From the NCBI RefSeq assembly GCF_000591055.1, contig NC_020388.1, forward strand, positions 1,860,001-1,924,000: a stretch of 64,000 nt of DNA, read 5' to 3'. Positions 41,831 through 62,622 of this stretch are shown here, in pieces. The position numbers and the translations under genes were made by a program. This DNA is from Natronomonas moolapensis 8.8.11 (GTDB lineage Archaea; Halobacteriota; Halobacteria; Halobacteriales; Haloarculaceae). Every line of letters starts with the position of its first letter. The stretch's first letter is position 1. The notes beneath the pieces are model-generated. The model had not been told where the DNA came from and did no database searches. It was given only the letters and a program-made list of their open reading frames with translations.

Positions 41831-43420
41831 ATGACCAGAGTATGTAAAATCTGTATGGAGCGAACGGAGCAGTGGGACAGTGGGACGCTTGTAGGACATA
41901 TTCGTGCAACTCACCTAGATGAGAAAGAATCTATAGAGATGATGTATCCCGAATTAGTATCAGACATATTTGATGGCGAAAATATAGCGGATAGAAACAA
42001 GCAGTCAGAGATTCAAACTGCCCCCTCAGAGATACCAACTGATGATCATATGGATTCTGCATATGGAAAAAAGTGGTACCTGATTGGAGTCGGTGGGGCG
42101 GGAAACAATATTCTTGATGCAGTTCTACTTAGACGTGATACACTTGAGAAAAACAATGAACAGCGCGCTGTCATCTGGAACGGCGGGCTAGCGGGGCAGG
42201 GGTCACTCAATACAAATATTAGCGAACTCGAACAGACGTACTACGCCCAAGAAGAGAATAAATACAGCCGGAACGACCTGCTACCGAACTGTATTATTGG
42301 TTTCGGGAAGCATGATTACGCCGGTGCCGGGTTTCGCTGGGATCTCGGTCGTGATCTTATTGAAGCTGATTTTGCAGATGGAGGAAACCCATTTCAAGAA
42401 CGCTGGGATATCAAGCAGCAGCGACTAAAAGACTCTCAGGCTGTGATGTTCATTCACAGTGTCACCAAAGGTACTGGCTGTGGAGCAACACCAGTGCTGG
42501 CCGAAATGATTCGAGAACGTGTGCTTGATGACGATTTTGTGGTTCAGAAACCATTCTTTAGTAGTATTGTTCTTCCATCTCGTGGACGTCGATACGGTGA
42601 CTTCGGTGGGCGTGCAAAAGTCAATGGGATTGTGGGTCTCACACGCGCTTCAAAGGCTGTGGACGCGATTATCCCGTTTGATAATCAGCGTCTCAGTAGC
42701 GTTAAGGAAGAAATTAATCCACGGATTGACCGACTTGACGAATATAATCCACCTCAGTATGAATCTCTGAATAAGCCGCTCGTCGCGTTCTTAGAGGCGT
42801 TTACTATGTCTTCTGTTCCACAATTCCTCGACCGTGAAGCGACGATGTCGATCATGGGTGATGTTTTCGATCCAGCGGATAGTTTCCGACCGGTACAGGA
42901 CAAGTATCGGGTTGATCCTGAGCGTGAGTACACTCCTGCTGTTATATTGGCTCCTGTGCTCGGTCGGCTACGAGGAAGCTCTTTTGACCGATCCAAACTA
43001 GAGATTCTATGTCGGAATGCATTATTCCAAAACAAACTTGCTGAATTTGATCCAACAACGGCATGGGGAGGAACATTCTTATTGTATGGTCCGGAAGAAA
43101 AAATGCAGGAAATATCAACATATATAAATAACGGAGTAGTTTCGGATATACTCGCTGGCGATGAATTCCTTGATGCCAACGATACTGTTGGATCTGAGTC
43201 TATTGACATTCATGTTAATCAACTTGTCACGCCGCATCTTGATGATATCTTCCTGTGGGGAACACTATGGAATCCAAAAATACCACCGCTTGAGGAGATG
43301 TACGACTACGCAAAGAAACTCAAAGAAGAAGGAAATAGCGAGCAGGCAGAAAACATTCGGGGGGTCTGGGAACACATTGAGCCACTATTTTCCTGCCTCG
43401 GTCGAGAGAATATGCCGTAG
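41831..43420 (+). CDS. Tubulin/FtsZ-superfamily protein 1 with N-terminal C2H2 zinc finger
   Basis: 529 residues. Residues 5-28 form a zinc finger (CKICMERTEQWDSGTLVGHI then RATH; C5, C8, H23, H28). After an acidic linker, YLIGVGGAGNNILDAVL (~86-93) is the glycine-rich first nucleotide loop of the tubulin fold, and MFIHSVTKGTGCGATPVLAE (~208-227) is the tubulin signature, here KGTGCGA instead of GGGTGSG. Later parts include VDAIIPFDNQRL and LVAFLEAFTMSSVPQFLD, as in the FtsZ C-terminal half. It probably binds GTP and polymerises. The family looks closest to the divergent Tubulin_2/FtsZ-like group rather than FtsZ or CetZ. A zinc finger on a tubulin is unusual. Confidence 0.85.
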   Translation: MTRVCKICMERTEQWDSGTLVGHIRATHLDEKESIEMMYPELVSDIFDGENIADRNKQSEIQTAPSEIPTDDHMDSAYGKKWYLIGVGGAGNNILDAVLLRRDTLEKNNEQRAVIWNGGLAGQGSLNTNISELEQTYYAQEENKYSRNDLLPNCIIGFGKHDYAGAGFRWDLGRDLIEADFADGGNPFQERWDIKQQRLKDSQAVMFIHSVTKGTGCGATPVLAEMIRERVLDDDFVVQKPFFSSIVLPSRGRRYGDFGGRAKVNGIVGLTRASKAVDAIIPFDNQRLSSVKEEINPRIDRLDEYNPPQYESLNKPLVAFLEAFTMSSVPQFLDREATMSIMGDVFDPADSFRPVQDKYRVDPEREYTPAVILAPVLGRLRGSSFDRSKLEILCRNALFQNKLAEFDPTTAWGGTFLLYGPEEKMQEISTYINNGVVSDILAGDEFLDANDTVGSESIDIHVNQLVTPHLDDIFLWGTLWNPKIPPLEEMYDYAKKLKEEGNSEQAENIRGVWEHIEPLFSCLGRENMP

Positions 43421-43521
43421 AAGATTTACATCAAGATCCGGATCAACCTGCTCCGTGTGTAATACTTGATGAGGGTCTGGCACTCGGCTAAGTCCGCGTT
43501 ATAGCCACTTTCGACAATAGA

Positions 43522-43532
43522 TTTTTTATTTA
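43522..43532 (+). promoter_or_regulatory. TATA-like box of the zinc-ribbon membrane protein gene
   Basis: TTTTTTATTTA ends 25 bases before the ATG at 43557, consistent with leaderless transcription of a separate unit. Confidence 0.55.
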
Positions 43533-43556
43533 CCCTTCTAAATGTTTGGCTAATCG

Positions 43557-45554
43557 ATGGGCAATACGAACTCAAAAAGCGGGGTGGGATACTGGCTGAA
43601 ACCACTCATCACGGGCGTTATTGTCACAAAAATAGCATATTTGATACCGGTTGTGAATTTGTTTGCACCGATTGTCGGAGGTTCTGTAACCGCTTATATG
43701 CTCGATAGCGGGGCTATTGAGGGATTAAAAGGGGGATTCCTGAAAGGCATTCTTATGACGCTTCCGGCGATTATACTGGGGGTATTTTTTGCTGATATAT
43801 TGGCAGGGATCCCAATTATTGGAAACCTACTTGCAGGAAGCCTTGGGTTAGTCGTCGCAGTTATACTACTCCACTCGGTTGTTTTAGGGATGCTTTCTGG
43901 GTTTGTTACAGGAGCAATTGCAACTACTGCCAAAGAGGCCGATCCAGTTGAGACAACGGCGAAAAAGACAGCAGCCGCAGCAAATACAGCTGACAAGGCA
44001 AAGGAAACCTACTCAGAGAGCCGAAAAGAAGCAAAAGAAACCTATTCAGAGAGCCGTGATGCCGATTTAGGCGAACAAAGTGCTTCCGGATCTAATAATG
44101 TAACAGAGTCTAGAACGAGTAATAGCCTGGATTCAGAGGCCCATACAGGAACTGACCAACAGCCCAAGCAAGCATCTGACTCTGTTAGCGAAAAGCAAGA
44201 ACAATTATCAAACTGTACCGATTGCGGTACAGATGTTTCTCCGGACGCGAACTTTTGCCCTGAGTGCGGAGCTGAGTCTCCGTTTTCTTCAGACGGTCGT
44301 CAATCGTCCCAGTATACGGATTCAGCAAGCCAGTCAAACGCTACACAATCGAAAGAGAACCACCGGCAAACCGTTTCAACAACGGCAACATCCGAATCAG
44401 ATGTAGTTCGGAGGACCGTTGAGAAGATTGAGGACCAGAAACATATCAACTCTCAAGCCGCAAATCAGCTCTGTGAAGCACTTTCGGACCCCAACAACAG
44501 TGACCATGTTGAATCCGCTCTTGATGAAGCCATTGACCGATTAGAAGTGGTGGAATCGACTGAGGAGGCGATCACAGGGATTAATGATTACTCCTCAACC
44601 CGACAGCTTGAATCAGCACAAAGACAGCTTGTCCAAACCGACAGCAACTTTGCCGATAGTATAAATTCGGTTATCGACCGTATGATTAAACTTGAAAACG
44701 ATGTAGATCAGCGGGCACAAGAACATGATCGACTTACAGATGCGGCAGACACCATCTGTCGGGTCGCAGAAGATAGTAACGCTGTGACGCTCCACGCCCG
44801 TGGCACAGTTGATCGCACCCAGCAGCTGGCTGAAAAGCTTGACTCTGAGACTATGCAAATCAACGAATCAAGGTCATCTGTCTCAACTCTCGCCGAAGAT
44901 ATTAGACATTCGATCCAGCCAGAAACGGACCAGTCGCGAAAACTCTTAGAAACACTCATCAATCCGGAAGGACGGGATGTTAAGGAGATATTGAAAACGA
45001 CAGTCAAAACGGTTGATGAGCACGCTGAGACCAGACAAATGCTTTCAGAGATTGGGACGAAAGATGTCAAGCGGAGGCTTGATTCGCTAAGCCAAGAGCT
45101 TGGGAATAAAGACACATCGATATATAGCCATCTTTCCGATCGGATCCGTGAATTAGAAGCATTACTTGACGATCCCGATTGTGTAGGCAGCATACAGCTA
45201 TATGCGATCTATCAGGAGGTGTTATATTATGACCGAACTCTGCTTCCACGGCTCTCTCGATCACTGTCTCGTGGCGGGTCTGTTGACGCTGAGGAGATGT
45301 TTTCAACGGTTCAATGGCAGATCGAAGACCTCAAATCGGAATTTGTCTCAGTCAGGCCTGATCACAACCACTCAATCCCAAAGCACTTTCTCGGATTAGC
45401 TGAAGAACTAACTACCGACGCTGAAAAAGAACTTACCGATAGGCCCGAACGGGCAGCAGGAATCTTACTAGCCGCTGACGCACTTATTGATCATGTCAAA
45501 GCACTCTACCAACGGAACGAGTACAGTGTGATGCTTCGGCGACTCAGAGGATAA
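43557..45554 (+). CDS. Membrane protein with zinc ribbon and coiled coil, tubulin cluster
   Basis: 665 residues. Hydrophobic segments span ~10-120 (ITGVIVTKIAYLIPVVNLFA; ILMTLPAIILGVFFADILAG; LGLVVAVILLHSVVLGMLSG). A repeat KETYSESR occurs twice (~155-172). A double-Cys zinc ribbon follows at ~220-238 (CTDCGTDVSPDANFCPECGA), then a serine/glutamine-rich linker and ~370 residues of predicted helical bundle (SLSQELGNKDTSIYSHLSDR; LLPRLSRSLSRGGS). The order membrane - ribbon - helical rod suggests an anchor or adaptor for the neighbouring tubulins. Not assigned to a family. Confidence 0.75.
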   Translation: MGNTNSKSGVGYWLKPLITGVIVTKIAYLIPVVNLFAPIVGGSVTAYMLDSGAIEGLKGGFLKGILMTLPAIILGVFFADILAGIPIIGNLLAGSLGLVVAVILLHSVVLGMLSGFVTGAIATTAKEADPVETTAKKTAAAANTADKAKETYSESRKEAKETYSESRDADLGEQSASGSNNVTESRTSNSLDSEAHTGTDQQPKQASDSVSEKQEQLSNCTDCGTDVSPDANFCPECGAESPFSSDGRQSSQYTDSASQSNATQSKENHRQTVSTTATSESDVVRRTVEKIEDQKHINSQAANQLCEALSDPNNSDHVESALDEAIDRLEVVESTEEAITGINDYSSTRQLESAQRQLVQTDSNFADSINSVIDRMIKLENDVDQRAQEHDRLTDAADTICRVAEDSNAVTLHARGTVDRTQQLAEKLDSETMQINESRSSVSTLAEDIRHSIQPETDQSRKLLETLINPEGRDVKEILKTTVKTVDEHAETRQMLSEIGTKDVKRRLDSLSQELGNKDTSIYSHLSDRIRELEALLDDPDCVGSIQLYAIYQEVLYYDRTLLPRLSRSLSRGGSVDAEEMFSTVQWQIEDLKSEFVSVRPDHNHSIPKHFLGLAEELTTDAEKELTDRPERAAGILLAADALIDHVKALYQRNEYSVMLRRLRG

Positions 45555-45620: not shown

Positions 45621-46895
45621 ATGACTTACTTGTTTGTGGGGGCAGGGCAGGCTGGAGGGGCGATCGTCGACGCATTATTCGAGTACACAGACGACTCGCT
45701 ACTTGGCCTATTTAGCAGCCCGGACATCTCAACCCTCGGGGCACCGATCGTTTTTAATTCAACCATCCGAGACCTGGAGAACCTAGCGAATGTTCCAGAG
45801 GCCAATCAATTTGGGATTGCAGAACAGCACGGACTGGTGGAACGGTCCGAGCCGGGGTTTGAAGAGATGGTTACTGGAGGGTTCGGTCGTGACCCTGTTA
45901 GGGCGAATGATGTGATGGCTCAGTACGATACAGAGATTCAAAACCTCTTAGACCGACGGTTCAGCGAAGCAGTTGCCCCGTCTGATGAAGAAGGAGATGC
46001 ACCGACGGTATCTGATACGATTGACTTCGTATTTTTGTGTCTCGGCCTCGGCGGCGGGACTGGTTGCGGGATCTCTCCACATCTAGCTCGACAGATCAAG
46101 CAATATACTGACGGGCATGCACAAGTGATTGCGATTGCGATTCTGCCCAATACAAAAGGAGCAGCTGATTCAGATAATGATGAGCAAGTGGCTGCCGGGA
46201 GGCAGGCATGGAACACCAGATATGGACTTGACCGTCTTGAATCCGAGGTTGATGGGATCGTTCTTGTCGACAATCAACGCATCTCGTATCTTGACTCTTC
46301 GGCAGGACAATTCGGTGAATACAATAATTACGTGGCAGCATCGCTCTACGACCTGATAACTGGTCCAGTGTTCAGTAGCGTTGACGCCAGTAAGGTAGAT
46401 GACGTTGACACACCGGATATCGATGTCCAAGATATCATTACCTCACTCTCGTTTGGCATCGGCTCCGACGAATCACAACCCGGGTATGCCGCGATTGGCC
46501 GATCCGTTTCAATGACACAAACGCTATCAGGTTACCTGCTTCCGTTTATTGGGAATCGTGAGGTCGACAGCGCAGCGCTGTCACGGTTATCAGCGTCTAA
46601 ACAAACATTAGCTAATGCAGATAGCCAAAAAGCTAAAAAAGCTATATCATTAATTCGAGCGCCTAGCTCATATCTTACCGACGGAAGTTATAGCGTTGAA
46701 ATGTCCACTATACAGAAATTTTTAGAGCAGAGCTGCGGGTCAAGCGAGGTGAATCTTGGAATCGCGTTAAGCGACCGGAACATGGCATCGCTAACGACGC
46801 TACTGACATACCGACGTGAAGACATCGATAGACTGGACGAGATCGACTCCATAGCGACAGCTTATGAAATAGAATCGGAGCAAATGACAACATGA
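45621..46895 (+). CDS. Tubulin/FtsZ-superfamily protein 2
   Basis: 424 residues. MTYLFVGAGQAGGAIVDALF is the N-terminal nucleotide loop at the very start of the protein, and VFLCLGLGGGTGCGISPHLA (~136-155) is a near-canonical tubulin GGGTG[ST]G signature. AIAILPNTKGAADSDNDEQV and DGIVLVDNQRISYLD match the strands and helix after the signature in FtsZ. Of the three it has the most canonical GTP-binding loop, so it is the best candidate for an active GTPase. It lacks the conserved C-terminal peptide of FtsZ and is not a division FtsZ. Its last codon overlaps the next small gene. Confidence 0.87.
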   Translation: MTYLFVGAGQAGGAIVDALFEYTDDSLLGLFSSPDISTLGAPIVFNSTIRDLENLANVPEANQFGIAEQHGLVERSEPGFEEMVTGGFGRDPVRANDVMAQYDTEIQNLLDRRFSEAVAPSDEEGDAPTVSDTIDFVFLCLGLGGGTGCGISPHLARQIKQYTDGHAQVIAIAILPNTKGAADSDNDEQVAAGRQAWNTRYGLDRLESEVDGIVLVDNQRISYLDSSAGQFGEYNNYVAASLYDLITGPVFSSVDASKVDDVDTPDIDVQDIITSLSFGIGSDESQPGYAAIGRSVSMTQTLSGYLLPFIGNREVDSAALSRLSASKQTLANADSQKAKKAISLIRAPSSYLTDGSYSVEMSTIQKFLEQSCGSSEVNLGIALSDRNMASLTTLLTYRREDIDRLDEIDSIATAYEIESEQMTT

Positions 46896-47128: not shown

Positions 47129-47922
47129 TTCGCCGTACTTCGCTCGTCATCGTAATTGTATGCGTTGCTGGATTAGCGCTCTCTGGCCTTGTAGTGCCGG
47201 GAGCAACTACAGGTACATCAGAGAACAGCGACAACTCAAGAGAGGCAGTCGTGACCAGTTCGGATGTTGTTAATAAAAATACCCCAACGTTCGGAATTAA
47301 TATTTCAGCCTCACCAGAACTTAAAACACAAGAGCGTCGGTTTAAGACCGCTTCAAATCAGACCAGTAATGCGTCCGAATCCTTGTCTGAGACCACCAGT
47401 ACAATCGAGGAAGCAGACTCATATGGTGGGGTTGAACATAATCGCGCAAAGCAAAATATTACTGAGATTGAGCAAGGATTGAATAACCTTTCAACCGCTG
47501 AAGATGGTATAAAAAAAGTGTTAAAGGAAGGAAGAGGTCAAAAAGATGTTACCCCAGCTGAACAGTTTTTATTGCTCAGCGTAATTGAAGAGGAACGGAG
47601 GGAAACAGAATCAACAGCTGAGAACTCCCTCAACCAATACGAAAATGCGGTGAGTGTGCAGCGCAGAGGTACACAGTCAACTGTAATCACGTATTTCGCT
47701 GGTGCGCTGCTCGCAGGGCTGTTTGGCGGTGCTGCATTGGGTAGCGTGGTTCCACTTATCGAAGCAAGGAACGTTCGCAATAAAATGAAACTCAGCCGAA
47801 ACGTATCATATAATCGACGCGCTGGCATCGTTCCAGTCATCGTTGGAGCCATCGTTCTTGTTAGCGGCTTTGCAGTGATATGGCATATTGGAGTATTAGA
47901 TCTAATTGGGGTGATCCTATGA
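47125..47922 (+). CDS. Exported membrane protein, tubulin cluster
   Basis: 265 residues. An N-terminal signal segment (RRTSLVIVIVCVAGLALSGL), a mainly helical outside domain rich in S, T, N and Q (FKTASNQTSNASESLSETTS), and two membrane helices near the C-terminus (ITYFAGALLAGLFGGAALGS; IVPVIVGAIVLVSGFAVIWH). No family recognised. ATGA overlaps join it to the genes on both sides. Confidence 0.7.
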   Translation: MIRRTSLVIVIVCVAGLALSGLVVPGATTGTSENSDNSREAVVTSSDVVNKNTPTFGINISASPELKTQERRFKTASNQTSNASESLSETTSTIEEADSYGGVEHNRAKQNITEIEQGLNNLSTAEDGIKKVLKEGRGQKDVTPAEQFLLLSVIEEERRETESTAENSLNQYENAVSVQRRGTQSTVITYFAGALLAGLFGGAALGSVVPLIEARNVRNKMKLSRNVSYNRRAGIVPVIVGAIVLVSGFAVIWHIGVLDLIGVIL

Positions 47923-50006
47923 ATTCAAGCACACAGAGAACTTTGACAATCGGAGGACTCGTTGTTGCCGCAGCTGCCATAGGAGCTGTTGTTTTCGTTG
48001 TGACAGGCACGACGGAGGTCGTCTGGGGGACAATGATTAGCCTCCCGATTATTATTGTCGTCGGTGTTGCAGTATACGTGCGGGGGCTCATCACGCGGAG
48101 TAAGACCAGTGAACAGCAATACGTCCGCAAACGGGGGCGTAGTGTAGCCGAGGATTTTCAGAATCATCTCCGCACTCTGGATGAGTTGCGAGATTCATAT
48201 CCCGACTGGTCCCCAAATATCGAGGCCCGTACTAATTCTCTTGTTGCCGATTTCCAGAATCAGGGCGTGAAAATCCAGCCCGATTCAGGGGCATTTGAAT
48301 TAACTAGCGGGATTGATAATGCTGATGTTCAGGAGTTCGAACGTCTTGAAACAGAGGTCGAGAGGTTCCACGACGAGTTTGAGGAGCTGTTTCGAGAATT
48401 TGTGCGTTCAGAAATAAACGAAACTGAGGAGCAAATCGCCAATCTCAGTGATGTCGATCTTATTGTATCTGTGCCAACGGCATCAGAACCTCCTGCAACT
48501 GACCCAATCCCGGCATATCAAGACACTCTCTCCCATACTCGTGAACAAGCTGATGACGCAGTTGAAACAGCGATCGAAACAATTCGGGAGATGACACGGG
48601 GAGATATGCGGCCTGAAGATGTTGACGCCATTGAACAAGAGCTTGAGGCTGCCTCCAACGCAGCTGATAAACATGATTATAATAAAACAGTCGATTCAGT
48701 GCTGGATGCTCGCGACCGGCTTCGTGACCAATTCTCTGGGTCCTTTGAGGTTGAGCGTGAACGACTCTCTAATCTTCTTGATGCCGTTCTGAAGTCGAAT
48801 GTTGACGAGTACGTTGACGCAGAACAAATTGACTTGATCACTGAAATGGACCAGCGTGTTGACTCTCTTGACTCAGCGCTGGAACTCGCTGAACTAATGA
48901 GAATGCAGAATCAGCTCAGGGAAACTTGCGTTTCAATTCTACGTTCGATGGAGTCGGACCTCAACGGTGCAGTCAAGACCCTTCGATCAGCAGAAACTCC
49001 AGATGGATACTATAATGAGCCAGCCGTTGTCGACGAGTCGCTTGGCAGCAAAGTTGCAGATATAGACGATCTTGAACGGTTTACTGCTGAGTGGGCTGAC
49101 GCAGCCGCTCGCCTAACTGATGCGCTTGAAACGGCAAGTACGAAAGCGTCGGTTATTGGAGCGTACGACGATCTTGCCGGTACAATTGAGACCAAATTGA
49201 ACCAGACCGGTGAAGTGACTGCCGACGATCTACCGGTCCGACATGCCGAGGAGTTCCTTGGTCTCTACAATCGTCGCAATCCATCCGTTGAGTTTGATCC
49301 CGCGCAAGTGCTTCTACGACGTGGGGATGTTGAACAATATGATCTTACTGTTGATCTACAATATGAACACGGAGGCGAGTCTCGACAGGCGACTATTGAA
49401 ATCAACGGGGGAGTATACTCCGAGACAAAAATGGTTGAAACACATGTCGCTGCTTCTGTTGAATTCACCGACATTCCTCAAGGGGAATATACCCTTTCAG
49501 CTGACCCTGGGGCCAGTAAGTTCGGGACAATCAAACGTGAACTGGTTATTGAGGACGATCTTAGCGTAAGCATCAAATTCAGTGAGCGGTCGCCTCGTGA
49601 ACGCTTATGTTCGGGGATAGATCAAGACATGACGGAATATCTTCCTGCGATTGAGTCACAGGTCTCCTCAAGATTCAGAGAACAAGGCTACGTTTCGGCA
49701 AGTATGGATTTACCTGTACAAGATGAATACGGCCCATGCCTAATTGCCATATGGGGTGAACAGAGCGAACACGATGTGGCCGAATTTAATGACGATGTAG
49801 TTGTATACGACCGGTCCCAAGTCCGGCGTGAACTTGAAAACACGGTTCAGTATAATATTGAGCCTGGCGATGAGCTTCAATTTAGTGACGCAAGAAATAA
49901 TTTCTTGTCCGTACCCGTGCCAGACGAGACCATACGCGAGATGATTGGGGATCTACAGACAGACGATGACGTAACCACGACGAAGACAGCGATCAAAATG
50001 GAATAA
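47919..50006 (+). CDS. Membrane-anchored coiled-coil protein with beta-sandwich domain
   Basis: 695 residues from MNSSTQRTLTIGGLVVAAAA. Two membrane helices lie in the first ~65 residues (AAAIGAVVFVVTGTTE; WGTMISLPIIIVVGVAVYVR). A long acidic helical domain covers ~80-430 (VQEFERLETEVERFHDEFEE; TAIETIREMTRGDMRPEDV). A PEGA/CnaB-like beta-sandwich (~465-560: YDLTVDLQYEHGGESRQATI; FTDIPQGEYTLSADPG) and a final alpha/beta part follow. The bulk should lie in the cytoplasm, next to the tubulins. It has the same logic as the 39836 and 43557 products: membrane helices first, helical rod after. Confidence 0.75.
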   Translation: MNSSTQRTLTIGGLVVAAAAIGAVVFVVTGTTEVVWGTMISLPIIIVVGVAVYVRGLITRSKTSEQQYVRKRGRSVAEDFQNHLRTLDELRDSYPDWSPNIEARTNSLVADFQNQGVKIQPDSGAFELTSGIDNADVQEFERLETEVERFHDEFEELFREFVRSEINETEEQIANLSDVDLIVSVPTASEPPATDPIPAYQDTLSHTREQADDAVETAIETIREMTRGDMRPEDVDAIEQELEAASNAADKHDYNKTVDSVLDARDRLRDQFSGSFEVERERLSNLLDAVLKSNVDEYVDAEQIDLITEMDQRVDSLDSALELAELMRMQNQLRETCVSILRSMESDLNGAVKTLRSAETPDGYYNEPAVVDESLGSKVADIDDLERFTAEWADAAARLTDALETASTKASVIGAYDDLAGTIETKLNQTGEVTADDLPVRHAEEFLGLYNRRNPSVEFDPAQVLLRRGDVEQYDLTVDLQYEHGGESRQATIEINGGVYSETKMVETHVAASVEFTDIPQGEYTLSADPGASKFGTIKRELVIEDDLSVSIKFSERSPRERLCSGIDQDMTEYLPAIESQVSSRFREQGYVSASMDLPVQDEYGPCLIAIWGEQSEHDVAEFNDDVVVYDRSQVRRELENTVQYNIEPGDELQFSDARNNFLSVPVPDETIREMIGDLQTDDDVTTTKTAIKME

Positions 50007-50012
50007 ACAATA

Positions 50013-51239
50013 ATGGCAACAAATACGTTTACCAGATGGAGTGTGATTGCGTCAGGGGAGGGTGGTGGACGAGTCGCCTCACAGTTCTTTGAACGCGCAG
50101 AAAATCCTGGAATCGATGAACGGATACTGGTCATGAACACGAACCGTTCTGATCTTCGAAACACAATTGACCGGCTCGAAGAACATATTGGGCCCTCAGA
50201 TGACGAAGATCAGCTTATGGGCAATCATGCTATTGAGTTCGGATCTCAAGCGGGAGCTGGTAACTTCTTCCCAAATGGGGAAGCATGTGCTCGAGAGGAT
50301 ATCGATAGAATTGTTAACAATATCAGTAATCTAGCTGGCAACACGGACGCCTTCATGCATATCGCGACGCTGGGTGGCGGAACCGGAAATGGTTCAATTC
50401 CGTACATTATTGATCAATTCAAGAATGGTCTTCCCGATGCTGTAGACGAGAATGTTGAGGACTGGATGGGTAGCGTCATCCATGCAGCATTCGGAATATG
50501 GCCGTACTATTATGAGCAGCCGCAGCGACATTTTAATGCGGTCTGTGGGCTCTCGCGGCTATTACGGACAGGGAACGAAAGGCAGAATGCAGATATGGTC
50601 CTACTGGCGTCCAATTCGCATCTTGAGGACTCTGATAGTGAAGGAGACGATCAGTATGGTTCAATCAATAACGCGATAATCAGAGCGATTGATTTGATGA
50701 TTGGGGCTGGGCGGGAAACTAGGAGTGTTATCGATATCAAGGACTACGTAACTATCCCTTCTCAAATGGACACATATCACTTTACACCTGCTGTTTCGAC
50801 TGGTTTAGATGGATCTGTCTTCGAGCTTGAGTATATGCTAGAGAAAGCATCTGAAAATGCATATGTGCCGATGGATGTCGAAACGACGCAAGCCGCGTAT
50901 GCGATTGTTCGAGCACCAGAGGCAATGATTGACAATGATGAGATTTCTGAACCGGATGTCTATGATGCGTTTCGAGATTGGACAAGTAGCCATGGACTTA
51001 ATGTGGCAGGACAGGCCAGCCTAACACCAAAACGTGGAAGGGGGAGCGATGTCGATGTTTTGCTTCTATTGGGCGGATTTAGCCTAGATCCCCTTTTAGA
51101 TCACTCTTGGGATGATTTCGAAATGTTAGGTGAAAGTCTATCTGGGTCAGGCAGCGGCAAGTCTAAACTTACCCGCGCAGAACTTGATAGAATCGTTTCA
51201 AATCTTGAAGAGTACGCAGACCACAACATCGGGAAATAA
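50013..51239 (+). CDS. Tubulin/FtsZ-superfamily protein 3
   Basis: 408 residues. SVIASGEGGGRVASQFFERA near the N-terminus is the first loop, and HIATLGGGTGNGSIPYIIDQ (~115-134) is the tubulin signature (GGGTGNG). FGIWPYYYEQPQRHFNAVCG and VLLASNSHLED follow where FtsZ has its post-signature strands. It is more divergent than protein 2. It begins six bases after the previous stop and ends adjacent to the next gene, so it is part of a long operon. Three non-identical tubulins in one locus raise the possibility of mixed filaments. Confidence 0.85.
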   Translation: MATNTFTRWSVIASGEGGGRVASQFFERAENPGIDERILVMNTNRSDLRNTIDRLEEHIGPSDDEDQLMGNHAIEFGSQAGAGNFFPNGEACAREDIDRIVNNISNLAGNTDAFMHIATLGGGTGNGSIPYIIDQFKNGLPDAVDENVEDWMGSVIHAAFGIWPYYYEQPQRHFNAVCGLSRLLRTGNERQNADMVLLASNSHLEDSDSEGDDQYGSINNAIIRAIDLMIGAGRETRSVIDIKDYVTIPSQMDTYHFTPAVSTGLDGSVFELEYMLEKASENAYVPMDVETTQAAYAIVRAPEAMIDNDEISEPDVYDAFRDWTSSHGLNVAGQASLTPKRGRGSDVDVLLLLGGFSLDPLLDHSWDDFEMLGESLSGSGSGKSKLTRAELDRIVSNLEEYADHNIGK

Positions 51240-51280: not shown

Positions 51281-54253
51281 ATGAGAACCATTGTCGTTTT
51301 AATTATAGTCAGTGGTTTCGTCATGTCACCCGTATCTGCTGAGACGGAAGGCATAGACAGGATTGAGCATGACGGTACAAGCACGATCGCCAATCAACTG
51401 CAATCAAGCATCGCCAGTACAGGACAATCTTCGGAAAGTCAGGCTCTCAGTGTTGAGCGAACTACCGTCGATCAAATCACCATAACGCTTGACGCGGATG
51501 TAGTCGGTGAAGACGGGTTAATAAGTGGACCACAGAACGTTTCACTAATGACAAACCATGGCATTGGCTGGGGAGATCTGAGTCTGAATGGTGAACCTGA
51601 AAACGGAAAATACCAATGGAATGAAAGTGTAAAGATACTTGACGAACGGCGTATAGGCGAAAATTCGCTAACCAACGCGACGGTTAAGATTGAAGATACA
51701 GAGCTATCTGATACTGTTCACCTACATACCATAGAGCAAGCAAGTATCAACAGTTGGATACAAAATGGTCAATTATACATACCGGTAGATACAGTCGGCG
51801 TTACTAATCCCGATGAAGTTGATCCTTTGCTTGCAACAAAAAACAACGAGGATCTTGAGGCTGACTTCGTTGACTCACATACGGTCGAAATTAATCTTAA
51901 TAAATTCCGCGACGCGACAGATTCTAGTGGGTCAGGAACTGGAGCCCCTGTTTCCAATAATTTTGAAACTGATGGAGTCCCTGTCGGATCTACTGACCCA
52001 ATAGTCCCCCAGATCAGATTCTATCACGGCCAGATGGTTTTCTGGCATCCTGCTATTGAGTCGGAAACAGAGTATACAATAACGGTTCATGATATTGGAA
52101 GGAGCAATGAAGAACTCTCAACAGATGAAGTTAGCTTAGATTCTGGAGTTGCTCCGTTACCAAACGCCGATAGAGTAGCTGGGGCGGAGAATGTTACACT
52201 GTCGGTTCGTCAAGCAGGTTCGGACGCACTGTTATTTGGCCATAGAAATATCAATACGGATTCAGAGCCAGAGAGCTTCAATGCAACCTTGATTGATGAT
52301 CAGACAATCCAAGGTGAGAGATCGATTGAGCGGTTGAATGTGTCATCGATAATCGTTGAACCTGAACTGAACTACATAAGTAAAACTAACACAGAGGTTG
52401 ATGGTAATGAGCTGACATTATCCGATACGAGTCTTGAGTCAGAGAATACAATCCGAATGGCAACTGATGCTGGGATTGTCAATGTCAAACTCTCGCAGTC
52501 AGCTACTACTGGAAGCCTGAATTCCATACCAATTATTCCCGTTATTATCGGTGTTAGTGGGATTGTTCTGTTTGTCATAGGAATCTTTATTGGTAGTAAA
52601 CGCCCAGTAAAGCTCGATATTATAGAGAAATCTTTTATATCGGTACTCATTGTGTTCATATTATCGGTTCTTATAATAAGTCAAGTACGCCCCGCCTCAG
52701 TCCCAGGGGACTTCCTAAGACACCACCTCCCGATGTCTGTAGTGCTTGTTCTCCCGGTGCTTGGATACTTTACTGGGAGTACTCTATTCCACCGTGAGCA
52801 AGCTCAGTATAAACAGAGTGGGACACAAACGCAAACACATACAGTACAACAACAAGTTAATATAACTGATGGAGCGCAGCCGATTAAGCAGCGTGCTAAA
52901 ATCACAGCTCGAAAAACCGGAGACGCCAATAGCACAAGTCGGACATCAGTTATCACCGGTGGCTCCGGATCTATATCGCTTCCCACCGGGAAATGGACTA
53001 TCTCCGCCAAAATAGAAAATGAACAGATTAGCTCAGAAACTGTTCAAAGATCGGTCTATCAAGGTGACAGGGGTCCTCCAATCGAATTGACTGTTAACCT
53101 TCCAGAAATATCTATAACCGTTCAAGACAGCACTCGCGATTTTCGTGTGCCAGATGCAAAAATTCAACTTGAGTCTGATCAAGAAAAGACGACAAAACGA
53201 AGCGGTGAGGACGGTCGAGTAACCTTTGACTCAAAGCTTGGTCAAAAGACTGTAGGAGTCACTGTCAGCCATGAGAAATACGAAAAGACAACGAATGAGT
53301 ACCAAGTTACTGATAACGGTCTCAGTGAGACGGTCACACTTAAACCACAAACAGGAAAGCTTCGAGTTGTATCGCAGATCGATGGAGTTGAGACGGAGAA
53401 TATAGACGCTAAAATAACTCCTGAAGAACCGATTCTCAAAGGGATCTACGGAGAACAAAAGAGCATTAAAAAGGCCGGGCAGGAGGGCGAATATGCTGAA
53501 GGAGATATATTAATCGGGCAGTACCGCGTGGGTCTTGAGCTCTCAGACCGACTTGAGACTCTGTTTAAAACCACAGAAAAACGAGTAACGGTCAGCGAAC
53601 ATGGTGAAACCGTGGTAGCCGAAGCATCATTTGATTGGCACCTTTCGGAGTCACATCATGATCGGATTCGACGCCTTCGTGAGGAAATTCAGGGCGTGAC
53701 GGCGAAATCTGGTATTGATACCGCAATTCAACGGTACTATGCTTCGGTCATCAATCAAGTTCTCGATGAAATTGAACAGTTCCCCAAACAGGGGCACTAT
53801 TTTGTGAGGGTTGACTCCCACCCAGATGAAGTCACTGATGCGACGCTGGAGGCAGTGGCTAACGCCGTTGAGACGATCTCAGAAGCAATGTCGACAAAAC
53901 GGAATTTAGATCTATTTACCGCATGTTCAGACATGGTAGATGCAAATACACAATGGCAAGGGACGTTCGACATGGAAACATTCGCTAATCGACTCCAAGC
54001 GGGGCCAGTAGCAGCACGACGCACGTTCGCAGAGCAAGTCGATGATGTCTCAGCACGGATTGACAGCGAACGTGGTTCGCTTTCTGAGATTGCACCGGCA
54101 CAAGAAATGTTAGAACGGATCGAGATAAGTGATAGCGGTAAACGTATCAATAATATCGCGTCTATCCACCTCGCTATTCTGTTGTTGAGCGCGGTTGAGG
54201 AACTATTTGAGCATCGTGAGCTTAGAGAACGACTCTCACGGACGGTGTTTTAA
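51281..54253 (+). CDS. Large membrane protein with ecto- and endo-domains, tubulin cluster
   Basis: 990 residues; ATG 51281 chosen because it begins a signal peptide (MRTIVVLIIVSGFVMSPVSA). Residues ~25-410 are a beta-rich exported domain. Three membrane helices follow (~415-440, 451-470, 486-505), placing the rest inside. The cytoplasmic part has PEGA/carboxypeptidase-regulatory-like beta-sandwiches (~530-760: SISLPTGKWTISAKIENEQI; DAKIQLESDQEKTTKRSGED) and a C-terminal helical domain (SGIDTAIQRYYASVINQVLD). It physically links cell surface and cytoplasm, a good candidate for coupling filaments to the envelope. Confidence 0.75.
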   Translation: MRTIVVLIIVSGFVMSPVSAETEGIDRIEHDGTSTIANQLQSSIASTGQSSESQALSVERTTVDQITITLDADVVGEDGLISGPQNVSLMTNHGIGWGDLSLNGEPENGKYQWNESVKILDERRIGENSLTNATVKIEDTELSDTVHLHTIEQASINSWIQNGQLYIPVDTVGVTNPDEVDPLLATKNNEDLEADFVDSHTVEINLNKFRDATDSSGSGTGAPVSNNFETDGVPVGSTDPIVPQIRFYHGQMVFWHPAIESETEYTITVHDIGRSNEELSTDEVSLDSGVAPLPNADRVAGAENVTLSVRQAGSDALLFGHRNINTDSEPESFNATLIDDQTIQGERSIERLNVSSIIVEPELNYISKTNTEVDGNELTLSDTSLESENTIRMATDAGIVNVKLSQSATTGSLNSIPIIPVIIGVSGIVLFVIGIFIGSKRPVKLDIIEKSFISVLIVFILSVLIISQVRPASVPGDFLRHHLPMSVVLVLPVLGYFTGSTLFHREQAQYKQSGTQTQTHTVQQQVNITDGAQPIKQRAKITARKTGDANSTSRTSVITGGSGSISLPTGKWTISAKIENEQISSETVQRSVYQGDRGPPIELTVNLPEISITVQDSTRDFRVPDAKIQLESDQEKTTKRSGEDGRVTFDSKLGQKTVGVTVSHEKYEKTTNEYQVTDNGLSETVTLKPQTGKLRVVSQIDGVETENIDAKITPEEPILKGIYGEQKSIKKAGQEGEYAEGDILIGQYRVGLELSDRLETLFKTTEKRVTVSEHGETVVAEASFDWHLSESHHDRIRRLREEIQGVTAKSGIDTAIQRYYASVINQVLDEIEQFPKQGHYFVRVDSHPDEVTDATLEAVANAVETISEAMSTKRNLDLFTACSDMVDANTQWQGTFDMETFANRLQAGPVAARRTFAEQVDDVSARIDSERGSLSEIAPAQEMLERIEISDSGKRINNIASIHLAILLLSAVEELFEHRELRERLSRTVF

Positions 54254-54254
54254 G

Positions 54255-55247
54255 ATGAGGATCATAAACAACCGACAGACAGTCGTGCTGATGGTCTCAA
54301 TTATTGTGGTGTCGCTTCTGGCACCAGCAGTCGCACCAAGCGCCACAGCACAAGAACCCGAAAGTGCGGATGATTACTTCAATACCCTTCGCGGGATGAG
54401 TGATCTAGAAATTTATGATGAGTACAGCGAACTTGAAACGCTCCACACGCAGTCACTTACAGGGGTACAGGTTGGAGAGTTTACCGATGAGCAGGCACGT
54501 GAGCTTGACGCGGTCATCGCAACTATCCGCCAATTTGAGGAAGCACAGGCACAGTTTGAGAATGAGGAATATGAGGCTGGATTTGAGACCGCCGCAGATG
54601 TCCAGAGAAGTATATCCGAACTTGAGACACACGACGAATCGCTCGCTGCACTTTCCAGGCTCGCTCTAACCCGGTACTATGAGCAACTTGGTAGCGAACT
54701 TGCCTCAAGAGCAGAACAAGCCGATAATACACCTACAGAAATTGAACTTCGAGAGCTAGCAGCTGAAGCTTATCGGGGGGCTAATCAGCCGGAACAAGCA
54801 GCTGAATTCACCCGTCAGGTGGAGCAACTCAGAGCAGAGCTGAGTGCTGATAGGGAACAGATGGATGACGCTGAAGCAGCGGTAGGCTCATTAACTGAGT
54901 CGTGCAGTAACTGTGAAAGCTCAACCAGCGCAATTAGCGAACATAATATTGGCGTTATCAAACGATACCAACCGGCATTGCAGACGAGTTCAATGATAAC
55001 GGATGCCGTACAGCGCGCCAATCGTCATGGGCTTTCTGACCGCCAGACATCTCTTGAAGCCCAAGCTAACACAGCAAAATCGATACGGCTCTCAATCGCG
55101 ATCGCTTCTACGACGATCCTCGTCGGGTATGGGCTCATTCTTGGGCTGTTAGTTGCGATTATCACCTCACGCCTCTTCGCATGGCAAAGAACGTTTGAGG
55201 CTGCAAATGTAGACTCTGTAGTAGCTGTGGGTGATAGCGATGTATAA
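54255..55247 (+). CDS. Exported helical protein with C-terminal membrane anchor
   Basis: 330 residues. A signal peptide (TVVLMVSIIVVSLLAPAVAP then SATAQ), an acidic helical repeat domain resembling TPR arrays (ARELDAVIATIRQFEEAQAQ; LRELAAEAYRGANQPEQAAE), a C-S-N-C pair (ESCSNCES) and one membrane helix near the end (LSIAIASTTILVGYGLILGL). The body would be outside the cell membrane. The start follows the previous stop by one base, and the stop overlaps the next gene. Confidence 0.7.
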   Translation: MRIINNRQTVVLMVSIIVVSLLAPAVAPSATAQEPESADDYFNTLRGMSDLEIYDEYSELETLHTQSLTGVQVGEFTDEQARELDAVIATIRQFEEAQAQFENEEYEAGFETAADVQRSISELETHDESLAALSRLALTRYYEQLGSELASRAEQADNTPTEIELRELAAEAYRGANQPEQAAEFTRQVEQLRAELSADREQMDDAEAAVGSLTESCSNCESSTSAISEHNIGVIKRYQPALQTSSMITDAVQRANRHGLSDRQTSLEAQANTAKSIRLSIAIASTTILVGYGLILGLLVAIITSRLFAWQRTFEAANVDSVVAVGDSDV

Positions 55248-57579: not shown

Positions 57580-60405
57580 TCACTGGAAAGACGTTGAGAT
57601 CCGTGGCGGAATATCGAGATTCAACTCAGTCTTGTCATCTATCGTCCACGAGTTCCGATGTTTGTCTGTCCACTCTGCTTCGGTTTTGACTGCTGGCCCG
57701 CTTGCTCGGAGTATACGTGACTTTTCGGTTGCGTTTTCCTCGGTGTAGGTGATACTGATGTCAAACTCAATAGTCCCAGCCTCAGTCTTCAGGTCTACGT
57801 AGTGTTCAATTCTTTCATTAGGCGGAAGAACCTCTCGATGGGCTTGAGAATACAACATGTCGTTTATTTTCTCACCCTCTGCTTTGATAGAGACGTCTGA
57901 TAACGACTCGTTAGTGCCATTCTCAAAGACCATTACAACGGTTCCGTAATCGCCAGCGACCTGTGTAGCTGGCCCGATTGCCGTCTGGATTAGAGTATTA
58001 CTGTTATAATTTGCCTCACTATCCTCAATAGTTACTGTGTTAATCTCTTCCTGCATCCCACTTGGACTAGATGTCATAATTTTCGTCTTAACATAGTCCG
58101 ACACCTCGGATGTGAGCTTCCGTCCGGTAAACACCGTTTGATTGCCAGTTGCGAGGGTCTGCGTGTCAATATTAATTTTTTGACCGCCAATTTTAATCCA
58201 ATCAACTTGCCGATCTGAGTCAGTGCGATTCTCAAGTTCAACTTCATATTCATCATTTACCGTACAGACAGCGCGATGAACAATCAGGCCGCTATTTATT
58301 ATTGTTATTTTTTTAGCCGGAATACTACTAATGATCTGACCATCTTGTTCAACGGTAGCCTCTGGAAGTTGCGTATTACTATCTGAAAAGAATACGTGGG
58401 TTCGTTCAGTCTGCCATGTATCACTAGGAGCGAGTTTGCCCGTATCAAATTGGTTGTCACCGACAACAATTGTTGGCTTGACAGTGCTATAGCCGTCATT
58501 TCGAACTGTAATCCGTTCACAGGTAGCGTGTCCGATTGGCACTTGATTCTTAGAGATATCGCGCTGTATAGAAATCTTTTCAGAAGTACGGCTACCAGAA
58601 TCACTACTGATTTTCATACTGTACTCATCAGACTCCGATGATGTCTCGTCTTGACTTCGTGTTTCCCTTTTCTCAGACGTTTGAGTTTCAGTTGTTACCT
58701 CATCTCTTGATTCAGTCTGGGGTTGATCAGGAAGCAACGAGTGGTCAGTTTGTGTGCGAGTCTTCGTCTTCTTATTAACATCCTTGGTAAGACGAGATAA
58801 TGGGTCTTGACTACTCATTTGAGCTTGATCCGCAATTTGGATCCCGGAAAGCTCAATCCGGGCAATCCCCTCTTCATAGATCGGAAGCACTACAACTAAC
58901 GTGCCGTCTTCGATCTGGACTGGCGATCGAGCACGGTCAGCTCCCGGTACATCAATGACGAGTTCGTCAGACCACACTACCCGGTTGTCGCCGTTAATCC
59001 GCCCATGTAGGGCGTCGCGTTTCTGTTTTAGTTCAATTGAAGGATGTTCAGGGAGTTTGCAAGTTGGTGCGAGCTCTGTCCGTCGATTTCCGCGAAAAAT
59101 CTCTACCCCAACGGTTATGACCTGTTCTGGCTCATACGATCTCGTGATGGTTTTTTCCCATGTTTCACTGGGGCCGACATTCGTTTTTTCTTCGCTGTCT
59201 TCAAATACCTGAACTGAATCAAAGGGAATACTTCCTGTGTTTGTAATTGAGAGTTCAAGTTCTATGATACCATCCTCAATTTTGATAGGCTGCAGATCCG
59301 CATCAGCCGCAATCACGCTCTCAGCTGCATCGGTGATCTCAATGAATTCTCCTGCAACCCTCCGGTCTTCAATATAGAGCGAAAATTCTGTTTTCCCATC
59401 TGTGCGGACAGAATCAACTGGAAAATCAGTTGATATTGGGTCCAATGGTGTGAGCTCTATCCGCCGTTCATTTGGAGAAAGGTCGGCATTATTGAGCTTT
59501 CCTTTGATTCGGACGTCATTTACAGTCTCACCAAGATTTGTTACACTTACATCAATTGTACCGCCCACGCCGACGGACTCAGTAAGAATGTCAACATCAA
59601 TCAATTCTTGCTTCAGGATGTGCGAAACAACGGTTCCATCTGAAACCGAGCAAGCGACTGAACCATCCCAACTGGTATATATATCACCGGCTGCGAGGCC
59701 CTCAGCGAAATGGATCGATCCGTCCGCGGCGATTGATTTAGGACCGTCTTCAGTACTAATGAGCAAGTTCTGGTTACTAACGGGGGAAAGTTGTTTAGCT
59801 GGAAGCTCGGTTTCCCAGCGCTTTTTTCCAGTTGAAGCATCGAAACCTTTCAATTGGTCATTTTGTAGGGATGCAATAATCACGCCATCGCAAAATCCTA
59901 TGTCACGTATCGCTGTATTCAGATTTTGATCAAATATTTCCTCACCAGAAGCGTCAATACAGCGCAGAAATGACCATGTAGCGGAAACGAATCCGTCTTT
60001 GATCCCAATAAACCGATCACTCTGTGGTTGCCCTGACCGGTTTCGTTTGCTTGTAAAGCTCTCTTGACCGGTCTCTGAGTCAACTGTACATATTTGATCC
60101 CGCTCTAAAATACCAAATAGTGCTTTATTTGAAAGGGCAGCGACTGAATATGGAGAATTAAAACTCCGGTTCCAAACTTTTGATCCGTCGCGGGTATACG
60201 CTGTAACCTGATCAGATGAGAGGATGATGACTCGCTCGTCTATCGCGATATCTTCAATCCGAGCCTCATGCTCAAACTCAGACCGGTCCGTTCCAGAAAT
60301 AAGGGTGACTCGGTTGTCGGACGCAATCGCAATCGTACTCTCACTGACCCCAACAGAATCAATCTGAGAACGATTGAACGAATCAATCCGCCGGTAGCCA
60401 TTCAT
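57580..60405 (-). CDS. Large cytosolic beta-propeller and beta-sandwich protein
   Basis: 941 residues, no signal peptide or membrane helix. Residues ~1-270 are PQQ/WD-like propeller blades (DSVGVSESTIAIASDNRVTL; AYTRDGSKVWNRSF; FDASTGKKRWETELPAKQLS). CARDB-like beta-sandwich repeats follow (VDILTESVGVGGTIDVSVTN; IIELELSITNTGSIPFDSVQ), interrupted by a low-complexity S/T/E/Q linker (~580-650), then more sandwiches. It shares its repeat type with the exported 55240 protein although it is cytosolic. Its start overlaps the AAA+ gene stop by 4 bases, so the two are coupled. Probably a scaffold. Confidence 0.7.
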   Translation of the reverse strand: MNGYRRIDSFNRSQIDSVGVSESTIAIASDNRVTLISGTDRSEFEHEARIEDIAIDERVIILSSDQVTAYTRDGSKVWNRSFNSPYSVAALSNKALFGILERDQICTVDSETGQESFTSKRNRSGQPQSDRFIGIKDGFVSATWSFLRCIDASGEEIFDQNLNTAIRDIGFCDGVIIASLQNDQLKGFDASTGKKRWETELPAKQLSPVSNQNLLISTEDGPKSIAADGSIHFAEGLAAGDIYTSWDGSVACSVSDGTVVSHILKQELIDVDILTESVGVGGTIDVSVTNLGETVNDVRIKGKLNNADLSPNERRIELTPLDPISTDFPVDSVRTDGKTEFSLYIEDRRVAGEFIEITDAAESVIAADADLQPIKIEDGIIELELSITNTGSIPFDSVQVFEDSEEKTNVGPSETWEKTITRSYEPEQVITVGVEIFRGNRRTELAPTCKLPEHPSIELKQKRDALHGRINGDNRVVWSDELVIDVPGADRARSPVQIEDGTLVVVLPIYEEGIARIELSGIQIADQAQMSSQDPLSRLTKDVNKKTKTRTQTDHSLLPDQPQTESRDEVTTETQTSEKRETRSQDETSSESDEYSMKISSDSGSRTSEKISIQRDISKNQVPIGHATCERITVRNDGYSTVKPTIVVGDNQFDTGKLAPSDTWQTERTHVFFSDSNTQLPEATVEQDGQIISSIPAKKITIINSGLIVHRAVCTVNDEYEVELENRTDSDRQVDWIKIGGQKINIDTQTLATGNQTVFTGRKLTSEVSDYVKTKIMTSSPSGMQEEINTVTIEDSEANYNSNTLIQTAIGPATQVAGDYGTVVMVFENGTNESLSDVSIKAEGEKINDMLYSQAHREVLPPNERIEHYVDLKTEAGTIEFDISITYTEENATEKSRILRASGPAVKTEAEWTDKHRNSWTIDDKTELNLDIPPRISTSFQ

Positions 60406-61997
60406 TTTTCTGTTTCCCCCGAGTCGTCATCGCCCCCAAGCAACTGTTCGGCAAGTGTAGGCCCGCCACCGATACTAATGCCAAGCTCTTCAGCTTGCTG
60501 TTCAACGTACCGCTGCATTTCTGGATATCCCTCGATATCATCAAGTTGGTTTCTAACGCTCGTAACGTACTGTCGGATGGTTTTTGCTTCTGTCTGATCA
60601 AGTCGTGATAAAAAGTAGTCTGTATCAGGGACGACCGGCTCACGGTCGGGTCGGTGGACACTCTCTACGAGATCACGTTGAAACTCACTGCCTAAAACTC
60701 GATCAGCGATTTCGGCTGGCGTGTATCCGACAGATGCCTCTCCAAGTCGTTCAAAATCAATTCGATCTGCGCTCTCAATCGAGTCCAAGTTCTTCTCCCA
60801 GACTTCAGCCATGACGTGTTTGTCCGGCTGTGGAATGAACTGCTGGATCGGGAACCGACGGGTTGCTGCCGGATCTATTGTAAACGGCATATTAGTTGCA
60901 CCGATGACAAGCAAGTTGTCCTCAACATCATTCATTTCTTGTAAGAAAGCGTTAGTTAACGAGCGCTCGTGTCGCTGTAGAGAATCTTCACTCCGATCTG
61001 GAATCAAAGTCTCAACCTCGTCAAAGAATAGAATCGCAAAGCCCTCCTGTGCAATCCCATGAGCCTTCTCAAATATCGCCTCAACTCGCTTTTCTGATTC
61101 GCCAGAGTACTTAGAGAGCACATCGCTGCCCTTTATTTCAAGAAACTTTACCTCTCCATAGTCTTCCTCAATTCCTGAGTTGTACTTTGCCTCATGTGCA
61201 ATCGCTTCTGAAACAAGCGTTTTTCCACAGCCCGGTGGCCCATACATCATCATGCTGTTGCCTCGGGTAGCAAAACTATCTCCATAGCGCTCAATTACTT
61301 CATTTCGGACCGATGGATCAAAAAGCGCCAGAAGCATATCTGCAGTCTTCTTAACCTCTGAGAGTCCAGCAACATCCTCTTCAAAACTGGCTGTTGGTTT
61401 CTTTGGATTGAGACTGACAGATATCTCTTCTTTTTTACTCTCTGGCCCACTAGCCGCGTTCCGCCGTCCATCACGGCTCCTACTTGAACTCAGTTCACGG
61501 AACTCACCTGCGTCAACGAAATCGATCTCAGTTGTGTCTGTGACCCGAAGCGTAGTGTAACCAGTGGGTTCCATTGATGCAATCTCGAAGGAAACGAGTT
61601 CGTCCCCCTTTGGTACAATCTCCTCAATCGGATGTAATAGATACTCATTTTGCCGAAGGAACGGTTCTAACTCGTCTGGCGTGATTTCGTTTGTGAATAC
61701 TTTGACTGAATTGCAGATCTCAACCGCTCGTTTACTTACATCTGGGTCGACTAGAAAGTCCGAACTCCAGTCAATTCCACCGAACAGGGACACCACATTT
61801 CGATGCATCTTCACCTTATTACCGATTTTGTCGACGACCGAGTCTTCGACTAGATCAACATAAAAATGCGCTCGCGTCCCTTTATGCATTATTTCAACCA
61901 TCTCTGTTCCTGGACCGACTTTTTTCCTACCAACCTTGATTTTCGACGAAGGCTGGTCCCGTTTCACTATCGGTGTTAAATTAAGCATCTGTATCAC
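60402..61997 (-). CDS. Cdc48/Vps4-type AAA+ ATPase, tubulin cluster
   Basis: 531 residues; an ATG three codons in (61988) is possible. A ~210-residue N-terminal domain (VGPGTEMVEIMHKGTRAHFY; LVSFEIASMEPTGYTTLRVT) precedes a single classical AAA module: MMMYGPPGCGKTLVSEAIAH (~250), FAILFFDEVETLIPDR, NLLVIGATNMPFTIDPAATR plus RF (arginine finger region), and a small C-terminal lid (VGYTPAEIADRVLGSEF). All catalytic motifs are intact. Such ATPases pull apart protein assemblies; katanin, spastin and Vps4 act on tubulin or ESCRT filaments. Here disassembly of the local tubulins is a reasonable but unproven role. It overlaps the upstream gene by 17 bases. Confidence 0.88.
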   Translation of the reverse strand: MIQMLNLTPIVKRDQPSSKIKVGRKKVGPGTEMVEIMHKGTRAHFYVDLVEDSVVDKIGNKVKMHRNVVSLFGGIDWSSDFLVDPDVSKRAVEICNSVKVFTNEITPDELEPFLRQNEYLLHPIEEIVPKGDELVSFEIASMEPTGYTTLRVTDTTEIDFVDAGEFRELSSSRSRDGRRNAASGPESKKEEISVSLNPKKPTASFEEDVAGLSEVKKTADMLLALFDPSVRNEVIERYGDSFATRGNSMMMYGPPGCGKTLVSEAIAHEAKYNSGIEEDYGEVKFLEIKGSDVLSKYSGESEKRVEAIFEKAHGIAQEGFAILFFDEVETLIPDRSEDSLQRHERSLTNAFLQEMNDVEDNLLVIGATNMPFTIDPAATRRFPIQQFIPQPDKHVMAEVWEKNLDSIESADRIDFERLGEASVGYTPAEIADRVLGSEFQRDLVESVHRPDREPVVPDTDYFLSRLDQTEAKTIRQYVTSVRNQLDDIEGYPEMQRYVEQQAEELGISIGGGPTLAEQLLGGDDDSGETEK

Positions 61998-62622
61998 CCC
62001 TGAGAACGGTTATTTCACGCTCTATCGATTTTAATAAATTATCCTGATTGTGGTCTGTTCTATGACTAACGTAGCCATTCGTTGCCGTGCTGCGGTCAAG
62101 AGTATATTCTAAGACTTCAAGCATCTCAAGAATATTCTTACATGACCTATTGAGCCTCTTTTCACCACCATCCGTTTGAATCCGATGAGAGATTTGATTG
62201 AAGTCGCTAACAATTTCTGGCAGTCGCTGTTGTAGAATCTTAATCACTGGATTCCAGTTTTTTGCTTGAGCGCCGTCTTCGCCAAGTGGGACAAAGAGCC
62301 ACGACCCGCCGTACTCAATTTCAGCACCCTGTCGCGCGGTATCTATAACCTCCGTTCTGAGTTCTTCTTGAGCCGGTGAAAACGTCTTATACTGATGCTT
62401 GAGGATGTTCATCACGGCTGATTCAACGTGGCTTTTGTGCTGGTCGGCTGGCAATGGTGTGCTGGATCGAAGTAACTCAGCGAGATCAATAAGCGTTGAT
62501 TGCGTTTGGAGAAGCCGTAATTCAGTTTCGAACCCAGAAAGCATCCGCATCTCAAGTATCTGGCTAGCATGAACCTCAATTTGCCTGACAGAGCGAAGCA
62601 GCGAAACCGCGTACATCCGCAA
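61981..62622 (-). CDS. Helical protein upstream of the AAA+ gene
   Basis: 213 residues, all predicted helical (SVRQIEVHASQILEMRMLSG; RTEVIDTARQGAEIEYGGSW; RSCKNILEMLEVLEYTLDRS). No signal peptide, membrane helix or known motif. An ATG two codons in is an alternative start. It starts next to the stop of the coiled-coil gene and overlaps the AAA+ gene, so the three are translated together. It may be an adaptor for the ATPase. Confidence 0.65.
   Translation of the reverse strand: MRMYAVSLLRSVRQIEVHASQILEMRMLSGFETELRLLQTQSTLIDLAELLRSSTPLPADQHKSHVESAVMNILKHQYKTFSPAQEELRTEVIDTARQGAEIEYGGSWLFVPLGEDGAQAKNWNPVIKILQQRLPEIVSDFNQISHRIQTDGGEKRLNRSCKNILEMLEVLEYTLDRSTATNGYVSHRTDHNQDNLLKSIEREITVLRGDTDA

Follow-up and report, generated by a model that had tools for sequence, protein, structure and literature searches.

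A conserved zinc-finger-like module at the N-terminus of a haloarchaeal tubulin-superfamily protein, a candidate tether within a three-tubulin operon of membrane and exported proteins

The window analysed here is a stretch of 64,000 nucleotides from the main contig of Natronomonas moolapensis 8.8.11 (NC_020388.1, positions 1,860,001 to 1,924,000). It includes the gene for a tubulin-like protein, Z1, which is the second gene of a conserved plus-strand operon (39836-57543) encoding membrane and exported proteins in the order A, Z1, B, Z2, s, C, D, Z3, E, F, and G (Table 1; transmembrane (TM) segments were called by a simple hydropathy scan). Z1 is one of three diverged tubulins encoded in this one operon, a context absent from the preliminary description of the locus, and the T4 and DxxD loops were intact in all of the Z2 (9/9) and Z3 (9/9) sequences examined. 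The genome encodes eight PF00091 proteins, three within the cluster and five elsewhere. A facing operon (57580-63666) is conserved beside the tubulin operon in Halobacterium salinarum pHS2, and at least its propeller, ATPase, and J genes are conserved in Halobaculum roseum; it probably extends beyond the window. The tubulin cluster itself is plasmid-borne in H. salinarum, Natrinema, and Halobaculum and lies on the main contig here.

Table 1. Features of the tubulin operon, the Z1 protein, and the facing operon (positions in the window).
Feature	Position	Strand	Evidence or remark
A, multi-TM N-terminus and long polar, helix-rich-looking region, 572 aa	39836..41554	+	flanks Z1 in 20/20 loci
Z1, tubulin-like protein with finger, 529 aa	41831..43420	+	ORF; PF00091 E=1e-11; 40 homologues
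Z1 C2H2 motif, residues 5-28 (C5, C8, H23, H28)	41843..41914	+	ligands in 40/40
Z1 conserved segment next to finger, residues 29-48 (D30, S34, Y39, F47 kept)	41915..41974	+	alignment column counts
Z1 hypervariable acidic linker, residues 49-77	41975..42061	+	pN/pS 0.34-1.57; 83% disorder-promoting residues
Z1 tubulin/FtsZ core: T1 GVGGAGN (86-92), T4 KGTGCGATP (213-221), T7 D347-x2-D350	42062..43417	+	invariant alignment columns
B, multi-TM N-terminus and long polar stretch, with a zinc ribbon here, 665 aa	43557..45554	+	flanks Z1 in 20/20 loci
B basic C-terminal tail LYQRNEYSVMLRRLRG, candidate docking peptide	45504..45551	+	most strongly conserved segment of B
Z2, second tubulin-like protein, 424 aa, GGGTGCG and DxxD loops	45621..46895	+	
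s, single-TM protein, 78 aa	46892..47128	+	
C, signal-like N-terminus, TM segments, 265 aa	47125..47922	+	
D, long polar region behind two TM segments, ~695 aa (possible alternative start at 47880)	47919..50006	+	
Z3, third tubulin-like protein, 408 aa, GGGTGNG and DxxD loops	50013..51239	+	
E, signal-like N-terminus, internal TM segments, 1004 aa	51239..54253	+	
F, TM segments at both termini, 350 aa (start uncertain)	54195..55247	+	
G, signal-like N-terminus, Ig-like (HYDIN/choice-of-anchor) domains, C-terminal TM, 770 aa	55231..57543	+	
H, beta-propeller (PQQ_2) protein, facing operon	57580..60405	-	
I, AAA+ ATPase, facing operon	60402..61997	-	55% identical in H. salinarum pHS2
J and K, the two remaining conserved genes, facing operon	61981..63666	-	

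The Z1 reading frame runs from an ATG at 41831 to the stop at 43420, and the protein begins with MTRVCKICMERTEQWDSGTLVGHIRATH. Near its N-terminus, two cysteines and two histidines form the motif C-x2-C-x14-H-x4-H; the frame, coordinates, and residue numbers (5-28) first assigned to it are correct. We reject chance as the origin of this motif, which appeared in 0/200,000 random 45-mers of whole-protein composition and whose ligands are retained in 40/40 homologues. C2H2 zinc fingers combine C-x2-C with H-x3-5-H, have x12 between the two pairs, and adopt a beta-beta-alpha fold. The ligand pattern, C-x2-C with H-x3-5-H, is present in Z1 and conserved throughout the 40 homologues. When a profile of the finger was searched against the PDB, the matches were weak (E from 0.05) and nearly all were C2H2 fingers; against Pfam it gave no confident finger family, only weak C2H2 matches. 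AlphaFold2, applied to the finger alone, predicted a helix at residues 17-27 and no beta hairpin in a weak model (pLDDT 66), with which Foldseek found no PDB match. Judging from its ligands, we regard the Z1 finger as a putative zinc binder.

A tblastn search of 392 genomes of the order detected 35 strong and two divergent full-length relatives; these, together with plasmid records and after removal of duplicates, gave the 40 Z1 sequences that were compared. The alignment selection demanded the motif, a requirement through which 0 homologues were lost. The C-x2-C...H-x4-H arrangement occupies the same N-terminal place in every one of them, down to ~30% identity, with a cysteine-to-histidine spacing of x14 in 35, x11 in three, x12 in one, and x9 in one, and with an extra histidine in four of the x14 homologues. 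Z1 proteins of the divergent loci L038 and L039 are 32-33% identical over the aligned length and have the fingers CTICGQWEDDLQSHLTDEH and CPECGEEFDNIVKFERHKVEEH. Besides the four ligands, I7, W15, L20, D30, Y39, and F47 are well kept in the alignment. Across 11 pairs, pN/pS was 0.13-0.43 for the finger, 0.34-1.57 for the linker, and 0.06-0.16 for the core, a pattern indicating that the finger is under purifying selection and that the linker is nearly free of it. Since the finger values lie well below those of the linker, the N-terminus must be translated and selected as protein, and we therefore reject a downstream start that would leave out the finger, against which the retention of the ligands in 40/40 homologues also speaks. 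The same retention, and a finger pN/pS far under that of the adjoining linker, make it extremely improbable that the Cys/His motif is a functionless structural relic, even if the lack of a confident Pfam finger match would suit such a relic. The family-wide alignment, in which close homologues show no loss of ligands, thus bears out the initial proposal of a zinc-finger-like N-terminal module fused to a tubulin-superfamily core. Homologues of Z1 were found in at least five families of the order among the genomes sampled, and their distribution is patchy (2/11 sampled genomes of the genus). In 393 genomes spanning the phylum, a profile search detected no full-length relative outside the order, and a search of viral and phage collections found no relatives.

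The linker that follows the finger measures 32-131 aa across the homologues, a roughly fourfold range; acidic and disordered-looking, it may serve as a flexible tether. Beyond it, the core reaches a conserved C-terminus (LGRENM or similar). The T1 and T4 glycine loops of the GTPase domain are present and invariant, as are the T7 acids D347 and D350. In FtsZ, the T1, T4, and T7 loops serve GTP binding and a catalytic site that is completed across the filament interface. Since Z1 keeps T1, T4, and the T7 acids, it probably polymerises and is active as a GTPase, with polymer-coupled hydrolysis, and with all three loops conserved its earlier description as a complete tubulin-like core was a fair one. 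AlphaFold2 modelling of full-length Z1, from an alignment of only 6 sequences, gave a pLDDT of 34.

Z1 matches the Tubulin family (PF00091; Table 1), and phmmer against the PDB returned almost only FtsZ, weakly (best E=0.011). We reject an assignment of Z1 to FtsZ, as it scored 34.5 bits against a TIGR00065 cut-off of 295.2 and lies outside the FtsZ clade. In a 43-row tree, Z1, Z2, Z3, CetZ, and FtsZ formed five separate, fully supported clades on long branches (100/100 for Z1, 100/99 for CetZ), among which the tree gave no branching order. The separate clades likewise exclude assignment of Z1 to CetZ, and an assignment to Tubulin_2 was rejected as no PF13809 match was found up to E=1; within the cluster, Z2 alone matches PF13809, below the cut-off.

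Profile searches of the fetched loci found A and B adjoining Z1 in 20/20 Z1 loci. The divergent A-Z1-B modules at L038 (229-3330) and L039 (13030-15666) keep the finger and have neither Z2, D, nor Z3; the loci L049 and L085 carry Z2-C-D-Z3-E-F and contain neither A, Z1, B, nor a finger. Strong matches to Z1, Z2, and Z3 fell in the same 35/392 genomes, compared by hand. Given that A and B are found at all 20 Z1 loci and that Z2 and Z3 are separable from them, Z1 travels with the membrane proteins and not with the other tubulins. L038 also encodes a 1033-aa Tubulin_2 (FtsZl1-type) protein and L039 a kinase-domain protein, both near the A-Z1-B modules, which suggests that modules are exchanged. 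It has to be considered whether the finger is instead a self-association or filament-regulating module, which would bundle filaments or pair Z1 with Z2 or Z3. The three tubulins are co-inherited and C2H2 fingers can bind proteins, but L038 and L039 retain the finger together with A and B while lacking Z2 and Z3, and we consider this function unlikely.

On balance, we favour a model in which the Z1 finger couples GTP-dependent filaments to an envelope-spanning assembly via a membrane protein partner. As a member of the tubulin superfamily, Z1 would form filaments in a GTP-dependent manner. Its N-terminal C2H2-like finger would then act as a docking module on a flexible tether, and its partner would most likely be the membrane protein B, perhaps through the basic C-terminal tail, or else A. 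The assembly would also employ Z2 and Z3 and the exported or extracellular proteins C, E, F, and G, with the AAA+ protein I as a probable disassembly factor. Such a machine would probably remodel the membrane or envelope, or form an apparatus at the surface. Zinc binding, polymerisation, the finger as tether, and the choice of partner are all predictions drawn from the sequences. A bolder version of the model, put forward more tentatively, takes in all three tubulin families: jointly they might constitute an envelope-spanning cytoskeletal machine of haloarchaea that had not been described before, in which Z1 is tethered to A and B by its zinc finger, extracellular Ig-like proteins are connected to it, and an AAA+ ATPase together with a beta-propeller protein carries out remodelling.

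Because A and B always adjoin Z1, the finger is more likely to connect the filament with a membrane machine than with DNA. Of the possible partners, B is the strongest candidate because its tail is the most conserved part of the protein (mean conservation 84% over the last 16 residues versus 30% for the whole of B), is basic, and would match an acidic finger well. In L038 the tail motif is changed and in L039 it is partial, yet both retain the finger, so A or another surface of B may be the partner instead. A zinc ribbon is not a family feature of B, being present in only 6/21 rows, one of them a duplicate, and C-terminal homology between B and E had a probability of 22%, too low to claim. The preliminary description had offered two roles for the finger, a link from the filaments to DNA or to a partner protein; the second gains inferential support from the constant neighbours A and B, which are membrane proteins.

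The first role, in which the finger would bind DNA and connect filaments to the chromosome or a plasmid in a TubZ-like segregation system, is not supported, and we regard it as decidedly improbable. Some C2H2 fingers do bind DNA, and the locus is carried on plasmids in Halobacterium, Natrinema, and Halobaculum. However, Z1 has only a single finger, and the 13-residue His segment has a mean net charge of -2.55 that is never above 0, being acidic or neutral in 40/40 homologues. Acidic protein composition is general in haloarchaea, and for that reason the charge of the finger alone is insufficient as an argument against nucleic acid binding. Furthermore, the two gaps scanned, before A and before Z1, have no iteron- or centromere-like repeats, no adjacent TubR-type DNA-binding partner was recognised in the operon, the neighbours are membrane proteins, and the locus is chromosomal here. 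Given that the finger is never net positive, that the gaps are without iterons, and that the partners are membrane proteins, we believe DNA binding to be the less likely function and have rejected it as the leading idea.

We are doubtful of a reading in which the cluster would serve in conflict or defence, like the GTPase-tubulin systems proposed in PMC7159879, its filaments being the effector or a scaffold. Points in favour of that reading are the patchy distribution of the cluster, the restriction-like genes, integrase, and IS110 upstream within the window, and the presence at the divergent Z1 loci of a Tubulin_2 protein or a kinase. In contrast, PADLOC gave no match for the six non-AAA proteins tested and matched the AAA+ protein only to AAA-containing models, and on the plasmids of other species the cluster has metabolic genes or transposases as its neighbours. 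The GTPase-centric tubulin systems have been reported in firmicutes and actinobacteria together with GAP1/DO-GTPase and vWA proteins (PMC7159879). The Z1 cluster resembles them in that its tubulins stand alongside NTPases, membrane proteins, and regulatory partners, but neither GAP1/DO-GTPase nor vWA was found in it.

Known FtsZ proteins are anchored to the membrane by way of a tail, a helix, or an adaptor, and the docking tail of FtsZ, carried on a linker, reaches SepF, FtsA, or ZipA. Among the Odin proteins, the membrane tether of OdinFtsZ1 is an N-terminal (amphipathic) helix, and that of OdinFtsZ2 is a C-terminal tail with SepF (PMC12583498). Like FtsZ and OdinFtsZ1, Z1 is predicted to join a docking element at one terminus to a polymerising GTPase core. 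Unlike FtsZ, it has an N-terminal tether ending in a C2H2-like finger and no SepF-type tail, the core running to the C-terminus. CetZ is also an archaeal tubulin-superfamily GTPase of haloarchaea, from which Z1 is set apart by its own 100/100 clade. The FtsZl1/FtsZl2 (Tubulin_2) systems, for which Makarova and Koonin, 2010 proposed membrane remodelling (PMC2875224), resemble the Z1 locus in being multi-gene, membrane-associated operons around a diverged tubulin, and the Tubulin_2 protein at L038 provides a link to them. However, Z1 belongs to PF00091 and not to PF13809, its T7 is identifiable, no vWA protein was detected here, and a zinc finger is absent from the text on those systems (PMC2875224). 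The 'Halo.Tub' group of Halobacterota tubulins, with several quasi-tandem copies and coiled-coil neighbours (PMC9871819), may overlap with the three-tubulin cluster, although its description mentions no finger, no three distinct families, and no module structure.

In the open-access literature we found no description of a zinc-fingered FtsZ or tubulin (subscription papers lay outside the search). A zinc-finger tether kept throughout a family, if true, would be a new way of joining tubulin filaments to a membrane complex, and Z1 would bring a new tethering architecture to the tubulin superfamily, within an uncharacterised multi-tubulin system. The three-tubulin cluster is unstudied and is present in the culturable H. 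salinarum R1, as genes OE_RS12075 to OE_RS12025.

A similar finger had also been suggested in a small ORF at 7792. This claim is weak: the ORF (7771-8049) has C-x2-C-x10-H-x3-H, a spacing unlike that of Z1, and the Z1 family finger profile does not find it, the best second copy in this genome reaching only E=1.6 and lying elsewhere. We therefore reject kinship between the two fingers. Elsewhere in the window, genes with UvrD helicase and PD-(D/E)XK nuclease domains stand in a row at 9120-15534, and an IS66 transposase gene occupies 17406-18842. A restriction/defence-like island followed by a phage integrase spans 19482-35384 and contains a McrB/McrC-like pair, a DUF1156 methylase (HmaB-like), a DUF499 ATPase (HmaC-like), and an SNF2 helicase. 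An IS110 transposase gene (38567-39559) lies just upstream of the tubulin operon.
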